DNA from: Haloarcula rubripromontorii
GTDB lineage: Archaea > Halobacteriota > Halobacteria > Halobacteriales > Haloarculaceae
DNA: 64,000 nt
Assembly: GCF_001280425.1 (NCBI RefSeq)
Contig: NZ_LIUF01000003.1
Coordinates: 310,001 to 374,000 of the forward strand
Direction of reading: 5' to 3'
Positions 4,627-20,226 of this stretch are shown here, one piece after another. The translations under genes and the position numbers were made by a program. The notes below the pieces were generated by a model. That model saw only the letters and a program-made list of their open reading frames with translations. It was not told the origin of the DNA and did not search any database. Position 1 is the first letter of the stretch, and each line of letters opens with the position of its first letter.

Positions 4627-5680
4627 TGGTCTGTCTCCGTGTGATGAGGAGGCCGCTTGCGAGGACGGCAATCAGGCCGAGTAGCGCCGTGAAGCCGGGA
4701 CCTTCCCCGGCCGCGGTCTGCTGTGGTCCGTCCATCTCTCGTTCTTCGGGCCGGTCCTGCTCGAAATCGCTAGACTGGAAGCCGACTTGCTGTCTGGTTT
4801 CGTTCTCCTGCAGACGCTCCGTCGGATGGAGGTTCGCCGGGGAACTCTCGGTCCCGACGATGACGCCGTCAGAGAGCAACATCCCGTCAAGCCAGTAGTT
4901 GTAGTCGTCAGGCACCGTCAGTTGCGTTCTGACAATCTCCGTTCGGCCGGGGCGAATCTGGCCGACCCGAACGGTCGACTCGTCGGCGATGACGTTCGAG
5001 TCGGCCTGCCGCGCCCGGAGGCGTAGCGAGAGGTCATCAGACGGACTGTTGCCGGCGTTCGTGACGTACACCGAGACGTTCAGGGTCGTCTGGTTGTTCG
5101 AGACGCTGTCAATCCGGTAGGTGATGGAGTCCAGCGGGACGCCGGCGTTCTCGAACCGCTGGAAGGTCACGGTACTGCGGGCGTACGCCGGTGTGAGGGC
5201 GTCGACGTTCTGGACCGACTGCTGACCGGTCTCGACGCGGTTACCGTCCTCGTAGACGATTGTGTCGATCCGATAGCCGCCCGCCCGCTCGACTGTGATG
5301 TTCGACCGCACCGATACTTCTCGTTCCCCTTCGATTGTGCCGACTGACTGCCGCGTCGTCGTCGCGACGAGGCCGGTGTCCGCGTCGATGGCCCGCGTCT
5401 CCACGGTGACGTTCTCGGCTGGGCCGCCACGGTGTGAGAGGCGGGCGTCGATGGAGAGCGTCACCGTCTGGCCGTCGACCGACGCCGGTTCGATGGTCGT
5501 CTCGCGGAGGTCGAGATAGCTCTCGCGAACGTTGTCTTCGGGTTCGGAGAGCGCGCCGGGGACCGCTGTTGCACCGATGAGCATGGTCAGGACGACCACG
5601 ACCACGCCACCGGTCAGGAGGGTTTCACGTCGCACACGAGGATGGCCAACAGCCGCCATTAAATGTCTTCTGTACTTCAA
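4619..5680 (-). CDS. Secreted surface protein with PGF-CTERM anchor (DUF7490-like)
   Basis: This 353-residue exported protein has a basic N-terminus and one hydrophobic segment (about 21-45), then a long extracytoplasmic region rich in Thr, Val and Asp that looks like two beta-sandwich repeats, and ends in a PGF-CTERM tripartite signal: PGF, a hydrophobic helix and RRQTNE. In haloarchaea archaeosortase A cuts such tails and the protein is lipid-anchored at the S-layer. There are many N-x-S/T sequons, which fits a glycosylated surface protein. The DUF number is from memory and should be confirmed. It is the first gene of a two-gene operon with the small membrane protein. Confidence 0.8.
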   Translation of the reverse strand: MKYRRHLMAAVGHPRVRRETLLTGGVVVVVLTMLIGATAVPGALSEPEDNVRESYLDLRETTIEPASVDGQTVTLSIDARLSHRGGPAENVTVETRAIDADTGLVATTTRQSVGTIEGEREVSVRSNITVERAGGYRIDTIVYEDGNRVETGQQSVQNVDALTPAYARSTVTFQRFENAGVPLDSITYRIDSVSNNQTTLNVSVYVTNAGNSPSDDLSLRLRARQADSNVIADESTVRVGQIRPGRTEIVRTQLTVPDDYNYWLDGMLLSDGVIVGTESSPANLHPTERLQENETRQQVGFQSSDFEQDRPEEREMDGPQQTAAGEGPGFTALLGLIAVLASGLLITRRQTNE

Positions 5681-5711
5681 ATGCAGATTACAGCGACGGC
5701 AGTCTCCGGCG

Positions 5712-6494
5712 TTACCCGAACGCGCCGAGGCTCGACTGCAGATCCCGGTCGGTTCGGCCGTCTATGAGTTCGTAGCCGACGAGCTGGCGGAGGTCCACGG
5801 CGTAGATGCTGCCGTTGTTCGCAAGCACGGCGACTCGTCCTTTCGTCCCTCGGACGGTCCCTGTCGCCAGGGTTTCGGCCATCGGTCGGTCCGACAGAGT
5901 CAGACCGTACTCGAAGTCGTAGGTCGCAAGCGGGTCGTAGCGCTCGCACAGCGATGCCCACCAGTCGGTGTCGACGGACTGGTCGAAGCCAGATATTTTC
6001 GTGGGGACCCTGACCCGGTCCCCCAGTTCGGCGGCAATGTCGGCCTCGACTTGCCGGGCGATGCGGCCGTCGGCGACGGTCCGGAGGTGGGCGGCCCTGT
6101 CGGCCCCCTGCTCGCGGAGCCGCGTCTCCAGCCGCCAGGAGCGAGTGACGCCGACCTTGATGATATCGGGCGCGAACGCCGCCAGATACACCGCGTGTTC
6201 CTCATCGCAAGTGTCGAGTGGTTTGTTGCAGTCCCCGGTACAGCGGGCACACGGCCAGATGTCGGTGTGTTCCGGGCAGTACGGCGCGGGGTCGTTGTCA
6301 CAGCGGAAGTGGCGGTCGCCGTCGACTGCACCGGCACAGTGGCGCTCGCCGAGCGTGTACGAGAGTTCGGTGTCCGGGTCCAGTCGCTCAGTGGTCACGC
6401 TCCCGTTCTCGGCCAACAGGAGCGCGGCGTGTTCGTCGACCCGCGCACGGTAGCCCACGACCTGCACGTCCGGCGCTTCGGTGCGGAGCCGCAA
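5712..6494 (-). CDS. DUF2797 family protein
   Basis: This 260-residue soluble protein has a Cys/His-rich N-terminal half (CAGAVDGDRHFRCDNDP, YCPEH, PCARCTGDC), probably zinc-binding, and a central segment VYLAAFAPDIIKVGVTRSW typical of DUF2797, which resembles GIY-YIG-like folds. The biochemical role is unknown. The start is a TTG at 6494; no ATG or GTG precedes it in frame within the short intergenic region. It is divergent from the PEBP-like gene 47 bases away, so the two promoters are back to back. Confidence 0.8.
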   Translation of the reverse strand: MRLRTEAPDVQVVGYRARVDEHAALLLAENGSVTTERLDPDTELSYTLGERHCAGAVDGDRHFRCDNDPAPYCPEHTDIWPCARCTGDCNKPLDTCDEEHAVYLAAFAPDIIKVGVTRSWRLETRLREQGADRAAHLRTVADGRIARQVEADIAAELGDRVRVPTKISGFDQSVDTDWWASLCERYDPLATYDFEYGLTLSDRPMAETLATGTVRGTKGRVAVLANNGSIYAVDLRQLVGYELIDGRTDRDLQSSLGAFG

Positions 6495-11726: not shown

Positions 11727-12257
11727 ATGGCTTTTGAGGAACTCTTGGAGGACCCCGTCATACAGAAGTACCTCCACGAGCTGGTCGGACCGAAAGGGAT
11801 GCCGGTCGCCGCCGCGCCGCCGGACGGCGAAGTGACCGACGAGGAACTGGCCGAAGAGCTCGGGCTCGAACTGAACGACGTGCGCAGAGCGCTGTTTATT
11901 CTCTACGAGAACGACCTCGCGACCTATCGTCGACTCCGGGACGAGGATTCCGGATGGCTCACGTACCTCTGGACGTTCCAGTACGAGAAGATCCCCGAAC
12001 AACTGCAAGAGGAGATGCACCGCCTGCTTGACGGCCTCGAAGAGCGCCGCGAGTACGAGCGGGAAAACGAGTTTTACCTCTGTGAGCACTGTGGCATCCG
12101 CTTCGAATTCGGCGAGGCGATGGAGTTCGGCTTCGAGTGCCCCGAATGTGGCAATCAGGTCGAGACGATGGAGAACACTCGTCTCGTCACCGCGATGGAG
12201 AACCGCATCGAGGAGCTCAGAGACGAACTGAACGCCGACGTGGACGTGGAAGCCTGA
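11727..12257 (+). CDS. tfe: Transcription initiation factor E subunit alpha (TFE)
   Basis: This 176-residue general transcription factor stabilises the open complex with TBP, TFB and RNA polymerase. It has an N-terminal extended winged-helix domain (about 1-100) and a C-terminal zinc ribbon with Cys119, Cys122, Cys138 and Cys141. The length suits the single-subunit archaeal factor. The ATG at 11727 is used; an in-frame start 9 bases earlier is possible. The TGA shares one base with the ATG of the DUF2110 gene, implying coupling. Confidence 0.95.
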   Translation: MAFEELLEDPVIQKYLHELVGPKGMPVAAAPPDGEVTDEELAEELGLELNDVRRALFILYENDLATYRRLRDEDSGWLTYLWTFQYEKIPEQLQEEMHRLLDGLEERREYERENEFYLCEHCGIRFEFGEAMEFGFECPECGNQVETMENTRLVTAMENRIEELRDELNADVDVEA

Positions 12258-12928
12258 TGGTCGTTCTCGGTACAAAAGTGTACGTCGCCGGCGACGCCCG
12301 GGACCGTACGCTCGACGGACTGCGCTCGATGGTCGGCAACGAACTCGGCGACCTCGATGTGGAGTACGACATCGGCCTCCGGGACGACGAGTTCCCGTCG
12401 GTGACCGTCGACGGCCCCGACGAGACCGTGGCACGGAACCTCCTCCGCGAGGAGTTCGGCGAGCTGGTCGCCGACCACGAAGAGGGAGAGACGTATGTTG
12501 GCACGCTCGACAGCTGGGACGAGGACGGCTTCGTTCTCGATGTCGGATTCGGCCAGACGGTCCGGATTCCGGCCGAGCAGCTCGGTCTCGGGCAGGGGAC
12601 GCCGACACAGATACGTAAGCGCTTCGGGCTGGTCCAGCACCTCCCGCTCCGGTTCGTCGCCGGCGACCCGCCGCGGCTGGCCGACGAGGAGCGGGACCGG
12701 CTCTACGAGTGGACCCGCGGCAACGGCCGCATCAACGCAAACAGCGTCACCCGCTCGGAGGCGCGTGCGACTGTCAACCGCGCCGGCCACGCACAGGATA
12801 TCGTCACTGTCGAACGTATCGGCCTGTTGGAACAGAGCATCATCTGCAACCCGGACACTGACCCGCCGGGACTGCTCGCCGATATCGGGCAGTACATGCC
12901 GTCGGAGCTACTGGCAATCGTGCCCTGA
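12257..12928 (+). CDS. DUF2110 family protein, coupled to TFE
   Basis: This 223-residue soluble acidic protein resembles the archaeal DUF2110 family, whose role is unknown. Visible segments are VVLGTKVYVAGDARDRTLDG at the start, an all-beta-looking middle, and a segment with many Arg and Asn residues (RGNGRINANSVTRSEARA) that could contact nucleic acid. It overlaps the TFE stop by one base. The pairing suggests a job in transcription or RNA metabolism, which is an inference from context only. Confidence 0.78.
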   Translation: MVVLGTKVYVAGDARDRTLDGLRSMVGNELGDLDVEYDIGLRDDEFPSVTVDGPDETVARNLLREEFGELVADHEEGETYVGTLDSWDEDGFVLDVGFGQTVRIPAEQLGLGQGTPTQIRKRFGLVQHLPLRFVAGDPPRLADEERDRLYEWTRGNGRINANSVTRSEARATVNRAGHAQDIVTVERIGLLEQSIICNPDTDPPGLLADIGQYMPSELLAIVP

Positions 12929-12937
12929 TTTCGAGCT

Positions 12938-13720
12938 ATGAAACGCCGCCACCTCCTGTTGGTCGCCGTGCTCGCACTGGTCGCCCTCTCGGGCTGTACC
13001 GGCTTCTTCGGCTCCGAAGAGGTCGACCCGGAGCGGCTGAACGAGAACGCGAGCTACGACTGGAACACCGCTGCTGACGGGACCATCGTCATCGAGGAGT
13101 CGAAATACACAGCCGTCTACGCCGTCGAAAACGAGACGACGTTCGACGTGTACACCGTCGACGGCCTCGGGCGCGAGCGGAGCGTCCCTATCAGCGCGCT
13201 CCGGTTCAGATATCCCAACGGGACGGTCGTTAGCGCAAACGAATCTTCGCTGAGTGCCTCGGAGACTCGCCAGCGAACCACTATCTCCTTCCCGGGGAAC
13301 GTCTCCGGAAAAGTGGGGTACTCAGTTGGGCGGACCGGCAAGCGCTTCGCCTCTCCGACACTCGGCGGGGAGGGCTCGTACACGGTCGTGCTCCCGCCCA
13401 ACACGGGGGCCGGGATACCGTTCCTTTCGCGGATCAGCCCCGGCGGCTACGAGTCCGAGACCGTCGACGGCCAGCAGGTCATCCGCTGGGACGAGGTGAG
13501 CTCCGATCAGATTATCGTCCGGTATTACCTCGACCGTGACCTGTGGCTGTTCGGCGGCCTGTCGGCCATCGCCATCGTCATCGGCGTGGTGGGAACGCTG
13601 TACTACTACCGACAGCTACAGGCGGTGATTCGCCGACGCAAGGAGGCCGGTATCGACCTCGAAGAAGAGGACGGCGACGACGACCCGCGGGACCGCGGTC
13701 CGCCGCCAGGAATGCGCTGA
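12938..13720 (+). CDS. Membrane-anchored lipoprotein, DUF5803-like
   Basis: This 260-residue protein begins with a lipoprotein signal (MKRRHLLLVAVLALVALSGC, lipid Cys20) and has a beta-rich extracytoplasmic domain (about 25-200), one transmembrane helix (about 204-226) and an acidic cytoplasmic tail ending in PPPGMR. It therefore appears tethered at both ends. The DUF number is recalled rather than searched. It lies 9 bases after the DUF2110 gene and is probably in the same transcript. Confidence 0.75.
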   Translation: MKRRHLLLVAVLALVALSGCTGFFGSEEVDPERLNENASYDWNTAADGTIVIEESKYTAVYAVENETTFDVYTVDGLGRERSVPISALRFRYPNGTVVSANESSLSASETRQRTTISFPGNVSGKVGYSVGRTGKRFASPTLGGEGSYTVVLPPNTGAGIPFLSRISPGGYESETVDGQQVIRWDEVSSDQIIVRYYLDRDLWLFGGLSAIAIVIGVVGTLYYYRQLQAVIRRRKEAGIDLEEEDGDDDPRDRGPPPGMR

Positions 13721-18054: not shown

Positions 18055-18139
18055 GCGCGGGTTGCCGAGCCAGGCCAAAGGCGTAGCGCTTAGGACGCTA
18101 TCCCGTAGGGGTCCGCCGGTTCGAATCCGGTCCCGCGCA
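18055..18139 (+). tRNA. tRNA-Leu (anticodon UAG)
   Basis: This 85-base class II tRNA has acceptor stem GCGCGGG paired with CCCGCGC, discriminator A, and a D-arm in GCCGAGCCAGGCCAAAGGC. The anticodon stem TAGCG/CGCTA encloses loop CTTAGGA, giving anticodon UAG. A long variable arm (TCCCGTAGGGGTCC) and T-arm CCGGTTCGAATCCGG complete the cloverleaf. CCA is not encoded. Its 3' end is the unit that is repeated downstream. Confidence 0.95.
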
Positions 18140-18226
18140 TGAGCGAACGAAGTGAGCGAAGAGCAGGACCGGAACGAACCCTGCAAGGAACGCGCAGCGA
18201 ACTGCTGTGAGCGAGCATTTCTTGCT

Positions 18227-18250
18227 CCGGTTCGAATCCGGTCCCGCGCA
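18227..18250 (+). repeat. Second copy of the tRNA-Leu(UAG) 3' end
   Basis: The 24 bases from CCGGTTCG to CCCGCGCA are identical to the last 24 bases of the tRNA-Leu gene (18116-18139). Only the 3' half of the T-arm plus the acceptor strand is present, so it cannot fold as a tRNA. It looks like an attachment-site scar. Confidence 0.85.
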
Positions 18251-18336
18251 TTTTGCGGCGAACAACTCGTGAGCCGCAAATGGGTGCTGAGGATTCTAAG
18301 CACGGAACGAGCGAACGGAGTGAGCGACGTTCAGGC

Positions 18337-18355
18337 GGTTCGAATCCGGTCCCGC
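18337..18355 (+). repeat. Third, shorter copy of the tRNA-Leu(UAG) 3' end
   Basis: The core GGTTCGAATCCGGTCCCGC is identical to the tRNA 3' end; the following bases diverge (ACA instead of GCA). It marks the left boundary of the AT-rich cassette. Confidence 0.8.
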
Positions 18356-18620
18356 ACACTATGTGTCTCTACCTCGTCCCGTGGTTTTCTGACTCATCCG
18401 ACGATATTTGATTGCGGAGTACGGTGCCAGAAGTTTCAAAATCTCTATTCGTGTTGCGACCAGTCGCATAATATAGTCTCATTCTGAAAACGAGATGTTT
18501 CAAGTTACTTTCACGAGTGCGGGTGTGGAATTGCATTGTTAGACCGAGGTTCGCGTATCCTCTGGCCTAATTTGTCGGCTGAGAAAAAATTTAATATGCT
18601 GGCATTTGAGCGTCTCCACA

Positions 18621-18890
18621 ATGGCAATTGTTAGCAAGGTAATCAGCTTAGACCCAAAGCGGAGCCAAGACATTAAACCAACTTCTGGAGGGATAGAAAT
18701 AACATCAATTGTAACTGAAAATGATATTGGTGTGAAATTTATTAATCATCAAGGCGACGAAACGGAGGTTGGACTTAAGGGGGGGTCGGAACTTGATACT
18801 AGCATTTTAATTGATTCGGAAACTTATATTGCAGTTGAGTCAACACACAACTCTGATGAGCGGTCCGCGTTCCTCAGTATGGAGAAATAA
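18621..18890 (+). CDS. Hypothetical protein 1 of the AT-rich cassette
   Basis: This 89-residue protein is predicted to be mostly beta-strand, with no membrane segment and no recognised domain. It is less acidic and more Ile/Ser/Lys-rich than its chromosomal neighbours, and its codons use many A/T third positions, so it was probably acquired by transfer. ATG 18621 is preferred over an in-frame TTG 15 bases upstream because a TATA-like box lies 25-31 bases before it. The next gene follows after 2 bases. Confidence 0.7.
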   Translation: MAIVSKVISLDPKRSQDIKPTSGGIEITSIVTENDIGVKFINHQGDETEVGLKGGSELDTSILIDSETYIAVESTHNSDERSAFLSMEK

Positions 18891-18892
18891 AA

Positions 18893-19231
18893 ATGCCTGT
18901 CACCGCAATCGACTGGATTGACTCCGTAGATGAAGTAGAGACTACTACTATAGGCGGCGAGACGGAGGTGATACTATACACTGAGGAGGAGGACCCCCTC
19001 ACAATTCGCCACAGGGTATCTCTTTCCGATTTCAAGAAGATATTTAAATCCGTCTTTGATACTGCAGAATCAGTCGAAAGCATTTCAGCAGACGATTTCC
19101 GACATGCCGCTGATCAGAACCCCGATGCTGACGTGGAAATACGACGGACAGATATTGGTTACGACGATGTGATAGATTACTGGGAAGAACACGATGTTTT
19201 TGAGAACGAAAGTGGGGGGTCACTTTACTAA
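18893..19231 (+). CDS. Hypothetical protein 2 of the AT-rich cassette
   Basis: This 112-residue acidic soluble protein has no recognised family. An N-terminal beta-rich part (WIDSVDEVETTTIGGETEVI) is followed by a helical segment (VSLSDFKKIFKSVFDTAESVES) and an acidic C-terminus. Spacing of 2 bases from the preceding gene indicates one transcript. It uses AT-rich codons, unlike the flanking chromosome. Confidence 0.7.
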   Translation: MPVTAIDWIDSVDEVETTTIGGETEVILYTEEEDPLTIRHRVSLSDFKKIFKSVFDTAESVESISADDFRHAADQNPDADVEIRRTDIGYDDVIDYWEEHDVFENESGGSLY

Positions 19232-19250
19232 CTGGGCACGGATTGAGACA

Positions 19251-19607
19251 ATGCAGTCGCAAACTGATGTGCTGATGCAACTTCTGAGCGTTATCGCGCT
19301 TGCCTTACCAGCCTTGATGATTCTTTCTGACTCATTAGGCCTGACCGATTCAGATGATATCAGTAGTGACGTTGAGTTAGTGCTGAGCCGTCACTCTTTG
19401 TTCAGCTTTTTTTTATTGGTAATTGTACTTTTTGGAGTTTCCCTTTATTTACTTTTTTCAAATATCGCTTTTGATATATGCCAATCTTCCACCTGTAATA
19501 GCATAGTATATTCAATTATACTGGTATCCTTTATTGCTTCTTTTGTGCCGCTTCTCTATGGCGTGGGAAAATTTCTGTCCTCTAAGGAGTATTTTATCTG
19601 GCAGTGA
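19251..19607 (+). CDS. Membrane protein, third gene of the AT-rich cassette
   Basis: This 118-residue protein has three predicted transmembrane helices, at about 10-32, 48-72 and 83-108 (including LFSFFLLVIVLFGVSLYLLF). The ATG at 19251 lies 19 bases after the preceding stop; an earlier start at 19194 would overlap that gene and add a hydrophilic leader. No domain is recognised. Together with the two upstream soluble proteins it may form a membrane-associated module, by context only. Confidence 0.65.
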   Translation: MQSQTDVLMQLLSVIALALPALMILSDSLGLTDSDDISSDVELVLSRHSLFSFFLLVIVLFGVSLYLLFSNIAFDICQSSTCNSIVYSIILVSFIASFVPLLYGVGKFLSSKEYFIWQ

Positions 19608-19659
19608 GTCCGCAATACTTACTGCCACTCTGATGGTACAGTTTCAGATAGGAGATGTT

Positions 19660-19708
19660 GCTTAACGCTATCCCGTAGGGACCGCCGGTTCGAATCCGGT
19701 CCCGCGCA
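19660..19708 (+). repeat. Fourth and longest copy of the tRNA-Leu(UAG) 3' half, right boundary of the cassette
   Basis: These 49 bases match tRNA-Leu positions 18088-18139, from the anticodon loop through the variable arm and T-arm to the acceptor end. Differences are a missing GG in the anticodon loop and one deletion plus a substitution in the variable arm. It cannot form a complete tRNA. The copy is in direct orientation, as expected for an attachment site left by a tRNA-targeting integrase. Confidence 0.85.
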
Positions 19709-19816
19709 GTCTTGCTACAAACGCGGACGACAGGTTCTGGTCTGATTCTCACACCGCAGGAATTGCAACTGCCGCTTATGAGGAGTGTCCACTTCGTTCC
19801 AAATGAGGGACTGACG

Positions 19817-20005
19817 ATGTCGGTGTATGACCCACTCCGTGACTCGTCTGTTCGCCCCGCAGAATCGACTCGCGTCGACTATGCGGTCGACGATGCGGAC
19901 AATCCGACGGAGCTTACCGTCTTCAGCGATCAGGACGACGAGCTCCCGACGCACTGGATTTCGGTCGACATCGAGCACGCTGTCGCGCTCGACGAGATGC
20001 GGTGA
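19817..20005 (+). CDS. Small acidic haloarchaeal protein with WISVD motif (DUF7511-like)
   Basis: This 62-residue protein ends in ELTVFSDQDDELPTHWISVDIEHAV. It resembles a family of very small haloarchaeal proteins of unknown function; the DUF number is recalled, not searched. ATG 19817 is chosen because the 35 residues readable upstream begin within the tRNA-derived repeat boundary. GC content is back to the chromosomal level, so it lies outside the cassette. Confidence 0.6.
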   Translation: MSVYDPLRDSSVRPAESTRVDYAVDDADNPTELTVFSDQDDELPTHWISVDIEHAVALDEMR

Positions 20006-20141
20006 GCGAGGCGTGAACTCGCTCAGGACGCGTCTATTGGTTTCTTGAGAACGGACTGGACAGCCAACGCTCTGGAAGCGTTGTGTCCGAAGTAAGTTTG
20101 CGTGGGTGCAGTCCCAAGGGAATGCACCTGCACTCTGAGAG

Positions 20142-20226
<85 letters not shown>

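Follow-up and report, generated by a model that had tools for sequence, protein, structure and literature searches.

The repeated tRNA ends that follow tRNA-Leu(UAG) in a 64,000-nt stretch of the Haloarcula rubripromontorii genome (hereafter the window; contig NZ_LIUF01000003.1, positions 310,001 to 374,000) belong to a family of short hairpin units found behind tRNA genes in nearly all haloarchaea. Each unit repeats the 3' end of its own tRNA and carries an inverted copy matched to that tRNA. We found no description of this family, although our literature search was restricted to open-access papers, and it may provisionally be regarded as a new kind of tRNA-anchored, mosaic DNA (or RNA) element. 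A covariance model built from units of this genome finds the family in 383 of 391 haloarchaeal genomes and in none of 162 other genomes of the phylum.

Repeated tRNA-Leu ends in the window

The gene for tRNA-Leu(UAG) was located with ARAGORN at 18055-18139 (+), and is matched by Rfam RF00005. Its terminal 22-mer, GGTTCGAATCCGGTCCCGCGCA, recurs in direct orientation at 18229-18250 (0 mismatches), 18337-18358 (1 mismatch) and 19687-19708 (0 mismatches), whereas 100 shuffles of the window gave no match, so that chance can be rejected. At the last of these sites the match runs back to the anticodon loop (GCTTA..., with two bases missing and some changes) and covers 49 nt, 19660-19708. A fifth match (20142-20163, minus strand) is not a copy but the 3' end of a separate gene, tRNA-Leu(GAG), at 20141-20226 (-). 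The first-pass annotation had described four direct occurrences of this tRNA end, and that observation is confirmed, with one copy three bases longer than it gave. It had further proposed that the extra copies are attachment sites left by at least two rounds of integration and partial loss, and this interpretation is only partly supported, since two different phenomena are mixed at this locus.

The attachment-site reading fits the 49-nt copy. This copy has the length expected from anticodon loop to 3' end, and it closes an AT-rich stretch of 1.3 kb (18359-19659; GC 37-48% against about 64%) that is absent from syntenic relatives and was found in no other of 146 family genomes. The stretch holds three orphan ORFs on the plus strand, at 18606-18890 (94 aa), 18893-19231 (112 aa) and 19194-19607 (137 aa, hydrophobic by inspection). 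None has a family match and no relatives were found; the 112-aa ORF in particular has none among the species genomes scanned. Downstream, an ORF with a DUF7511 match (19712-20005) overlaps the region between the 49-nt copy and tRNA-Leu(GAG). No integrase was recognised between 18140 and 19708. A search of the genome for an integrase that might act in trans, which the first-pass annotation had suggested as a check, returned 15 Phage_integrase matches elsewhere. At the same tRNA, two sister species carry inserts of 13.7 kb and 5.8 kb with a 94%-identical integrase of 364 aa next to the tRNA, and a third relative has a 2.4 kb insert with a stop-broken copy of that integrase. The 13.7 kb insert also ends in a long half-tRNA copy. 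The integrase elements at tRNA-Leu(UAG) carry a Schlafen/AlbA_2 protein and a type I restriction R N-terminal-domain protein (stretch L043 of genome G008, 11998-13155, and stretch L047 of genome G027, 4985-6100), suggesting defence-like cargo. The AT-rich stretch is therefore probably the remnant of an integrated element, and 19660-19708 its probable distal attachment site (attR).

The two short copies are something else. They close two adjacent units, unit A (18140-18250, 111 bp) and unit B (18251-18358, 108 bp), which share the same plan: an outer hairpin, an inverted imperfect copy of the tRNA-Leu T-arm (18166-18180 in unit A, GGACCGGAACGAACC; 18289-18301 in unit B, GAGGATTCTAAGC, weaker), an inner hairpin, and a direct copy of the tRNA 3' end (22/22 in unit A, 21/22 in unit B). 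Unit A is hit by the covariance model at 18169-18250 with 64 bits, which is by construction since it is one of the sequences in the model; unit B, which is not, scores 38.8 bits, and the window's own tRNA only 17 bits. Unit A folds better than all 200 of its shuffles (z -3.8), whereas unit B is not significant alone (z -1.5). The hypothesis that all copies are scars of ordinary elements later lost does find some support in the integrase elements that use this tRNA in relatives. However, these larger inserts hold an integrase or cargo and the interval between the short unit copies holds neither, so that this comparison alone leaves the status of the short copies undecided. Moreover, the half-tRNA copies tied to the insert here and to the sister's integrase element start at the anticodon loop, whereas unit copies start at the T-arm, and every unit type examined holds an inverted, tRNA-matched copy for which an attachment scar gives no reason. 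We consider the scar hypothesis very unlikely for the short copies, and indeed refuted for them if the class-wide anatomy described below holds. It had been stated in advance that identical copies and content in all relatives would argue against mobility; this is not what is seen, since relatives differ in unit number and type.

A unit family behind haloarchaeal tRNA genes

In 14 syntenic relatives the tRNA-Leu 3' end recurs at intervals of about 105-125 bp, with a small set of bodies in different orders and combinations. The same plan appears behind other tRNAs of the same genome, each time with that tRNA's own 3' end: Lys, Gly, Arg, Val, Asp, Gln, Tyr, Met and Leu(CAA). In three genomes of Haloarcula (in the GTDB sense, including Halomicroarcula), examined tRNA by tRNA on retrieved stretches, 16, 19 and 18 of about 44 tRNA genes, or about 40%, have a cognate 3'-end copy within 220 nt. 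Markov-resampled flanks gave none, and the ends of other tRNAs hit in about 2% of trials. Units are commonly about 80-160 bp long, carry no cargo, and close with a direct copy of the host tRNA from the T-loop (about position 53) to its end, i.e. the last 21 nt or so.

The inverted copy tracks the host tRNA. In an alignment of 15 units from 12 tRNAs, 86% of cells are paired and 36 are double-changed, against 10.9 +/- 3.0 in shuffles (0/500), and sliding the partner by one column destroys the signal. Over 139 units from many species and 26 tRNA types, the inverted copy matches its tRNA at a median of 11/13 positions, against 7 in shuffled bodies, and ranks the cognate tRNA near the top (mean rank 0.10); complementarity fades in the acceptor strand. 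By contrast, inner hairpins are shared among different tRNAs at 85-100% identity. At T-arm sites that differ between such units, both inverted copies are cognate 173 times, not retailored 38 times, and otherwise 79 times (142 non-independent pairs). In the three-genome set, 34 pairs at different tRNAs share the inner hairpin only, and none shares both outer and inner hairpins. The parts therefore have separate histories, with junctions at the T-arm sequences.

Within the genome from which it was built, the covariance model finds, at E below 1e-4, only sites directly 3' of tRNA genes. One of these exposed a tRNA-Gln(CUG) followed by two units (contig C1, 764374-764543, minus strand) which the RF00005 search had missed. 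The 383 genomes hit represent 84 of 86 genera of the class. Several of the eight haloarchaeal genomes without a hit have unusually few first-look candidates, so composition or sensitivity may be the cause. In the phylum sample, the model hits 34 of 35 haloarchaea and none of 162 others. The model includes part of a tRNA end, but full tRNAs score far below these hits, and the 30 best loci are all tRNA 3' flanks repeating the cognate end. The general hairpin-loop motif GCGAACGNNGTGAG is not confined to tRNAs: 7 of its 15 copies in the genome are at tRNA arrays and eight are away from tRNA genes (contigs C1, C3, C4, C5 and C9), so that the hairpin sequence is a wider genomic repeat.

Gain, loss and origin of the units

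Orthologous tRNAs show clean presence or absence of whole units, among them tRNA-Leu(GAG), Leu(UAG) and Arg. The H. hispanica-like relative G007 has one unit behind tRNA-Leu(GAG), while the window has none, the following 50 nt being 100% identical; the 3' flank of the gene at 20141-20226 is thus the empty site of that unit. G007 and another relative, G001, differ by exactly one unit at tRNA-Leu(UAG). The polarity of gain is only partly supported: at eleven tRNAs the difference lies next to the tRNA, but at a few, mainly Leu(UAG), some species share the first unit and differ distally. Copies farther from the tRNA are more degraded (last worse than first in 18 arrays, equal in 12, better in 3), which is compatible with insertion at the tRNA, or with better repair of near copies.

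We regard the family, its anatomy, its modular combinations at different tRNAs, the gain or loss of whole units, and the separate nature of the 49-nt copy as demonstrated by these data; what follows on mechanism is inference. We think that the likeliest scenario, to which we give a probability of roughly 0.45, is that units are inserted at and lost from the tRNA by site-specific recombination in the T-arm, a quasi-palindromic site of the sort tyrosine integrases use, by a recombinase supplied in trans. Archaeal integrases target the T-stem-loop as well as the anticodon loop and 3' end (PMC8371274). In this view, each insertion would leave the tRNA intact and turn the old 3' end into the copy that closes the unit, which would explain the intact tRNAs, exact closing copies, single-unit differences and swaps at T-arm junctions. 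However, no recombinase has been tied to the units and no circular form has been seen, recombination at the T-arm not having been assayed here. A 22-bp direct repeat also allows loss by ordinary recombination, and none of the ten viral contigs matching a short motif gave a model hit. The nearest relatives of the Leu-element integrase in this genome lie by tRNA-Arg, tRNA-Cys and tRNA-Thr. Nor does a simple integrase model by itself make the inverted copy cognate after a move to another tRNA; this copy may be a second recombination arm copied from the tRNA, or a strand kept complementary by selection because it folds the extra tRNA end into a hairpin. For the window, we prefer a scenario in which an anticodon-loop-type element inserted first and units B and A were then added next to the tRNA, because the 49-nt half copy needs a full tRNA as target and abuts the flank directly, but insertion of the element at unit B's copy is not excluded.

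Two further arrangements involve an interrupted T-arm. In a Haloarcula halophila plasmid (NZ_CP119561.1; 1430-1575 of the stretch L306), in an array of at least 17 tRNA genes near a TROVE-domain gene, a tRNA-Cys-like gene has its T-arm interrupted by a unit body (outer hairpin, short inverted copy, inner hairpin) without a duplicated tRNA end. The inverted copy there fits only the universal T-arm core, and this is possibly a fresh insertion. In seven loci 3' of tRNA-Leu(GAG), mostly from Natrialbaceae and Halorientalis, a half tRNA-Leu copy about 200-400 nt downstream is itself interrupted in the T-arm by a hairpin of about 50-110 nt, a second, different T-arm insertion class.

An alternative, which we consider less likely, is that units are structured trailers co-transcribed with the tRNA, the inverted copy being kept complementary by selection so that the extra tRNA end is folded away or processed, and the hairpins acting as small RNAs or binding sites. 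The strong covariation, the folding of unit A, the hairpin loops (GCGAACGNNGTGAGC type) always found on the tRNA strand, and the conservation of the inner hairpin with fixed mismatches across families favour this hypothesis. Transitions that leave a wobble pair on the tRNA strand also outnumber those that do not (93/852 against 51/851), but this excess is largely one position (31 of 93 at G53) and vanished in another alignment (73 against 86), so that the test depends on the alignment and does not settle whether selection acts on the RNA. Scrambling the inverted copy hardly changed the predicted mispairing of the tRNA (0.68 against 0.71), and a role in protecting tRNA folding is thus not supported by thermodynamics, though the calculation ignores folding during transcription. 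No transcript data were examined, unit number is very variable, and many tRNAs have none. The RNA hypothesis explains the pairing but not the shuffling. We also considered splicing of units as tRNA introns, but set it aside by reasoning only, since the central helix expected of an archaeal splice motif would need self-complementary T-loops, true only for TTCGAA tRNAs.

It is also possible, but in our opinion unlikely, that units multiply only by tandem duplication and homologous exchange, without a dedicated recombinase. Three near-identical 129-bp units behind tRNA-Lys(UUU) and two identical 99-bp units in Halorientalis are clear tandem copies, and haloarchaea recombine readily. However, neighbouring units are usually of different types, and inner modules are shared between different tRNAs without their outer hairpins.

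If our reading is right, one of the best-studied archaeal classes has an undescribed repeat family at the 3' ends of a large share of its tRNA genes, tailored to each tRNA. This would explain the "partial tRNAs" that annotators keep meeting in haloarchaea, mark out unit-bearing tRNA ends as sites of rapid change, and give a tractable system for asking how a non-coding element stays matched to its tRNA. It also bears on how integrating elements find tRNA sites when several copies of the 3' end are present. A bolder version, compatible with the data but which we consider doubtful, is that nearly all haloarchaea carry a trans-mobilised system of tiny non-coding cassettes anchored at tRNA genes, in which hairpin modules are inserted at the T-arm, each insertion regenerating the tRNA and its own closing repeat, with the inverted arm copied from or evolving to match the host tRNA. 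This would be a tRNA-based array system comparable in layout to integron or CRISPR arrays.

Comparison with known systems

A search against 4227 Rfam families returned no match other than tRNA above the gathering score, either in the window or in five rich arrays. The nearest mention in the literature is that of partial tRNAs, several directly adjacent to the full copy, in Haloferax gibbonsii LR2-5 (PMC7921747). These are very likely the same thing, but they are noted in passing, and the passages on them give no unit anatomy, inverted copy or wider distribution. Tyrosine-integrase attachment duplications at archaeal tRNA genes (PMC8371274, PMC7921747) likewise repeat a 3' part of the tRNA directly downstream, with T-stem-loop and anticodon loop as crossover regions, and the 49-nt copy fits this description. 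The units differ in having no cargo or integrase, in recurring behind about 40% of tRNAs, in sharing modules across tRNAs, and in holding a cognate inverted T-arm copy. In Methanopyrus kandleri, an unrelated palindromic motif of about 20 nt lies 10 bp downstream of many tRNA genes (PMC5217627), without a copy of the tRNA end and in one species only.

The nearest analogue known to us is the E. coli tyrT repeats (rtT RNA), tandem repeats of about 178 bp after a tRNA gene, each including the last 19 bp of that tRNA. They occupy one locus in enteric bacteria, with no cognate inverted T-arm copy and no spread over many tRNAs, whereas the units occur at 26 tRNA types. A literature search returned no paper naming rtT RNA, and no rtT match was found over the units, the presence of that family in the library being assumed.

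CRISPR arrays and casposons offer another comparison, as repeat-anchored arrays with variable bodies, casposons inserting at tRNA 3' ends. One could imagine a target-duplicating insertion as in CRISPR adaptation, the tRNA 3' end being the repeat and the body the insert, each insertion duplicating the repeat next to the tRNA. The array layout (identical repeats of about 21 nt, variable bodies, anchorage by the tRNA) and the greater decay away from the tRNA are in favour of this idea. However, the repeat is the tRNA end itself, the bodies are a related family of hairpin modules shared between loci rather than captured foreign pieces or unrelated spacers, and the inverted copy is unexplained; no Cas1-like enzyme was sought, and we consider this hypothesis very unlikely. 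Finally, integron attC cassettes and REP-type hairpins are also imperfect palindromic, strand-specific hairpins in modular arrays, but the units have no cargo genes and no integron integrase shown, and are tied strictly to the matching tRNA.
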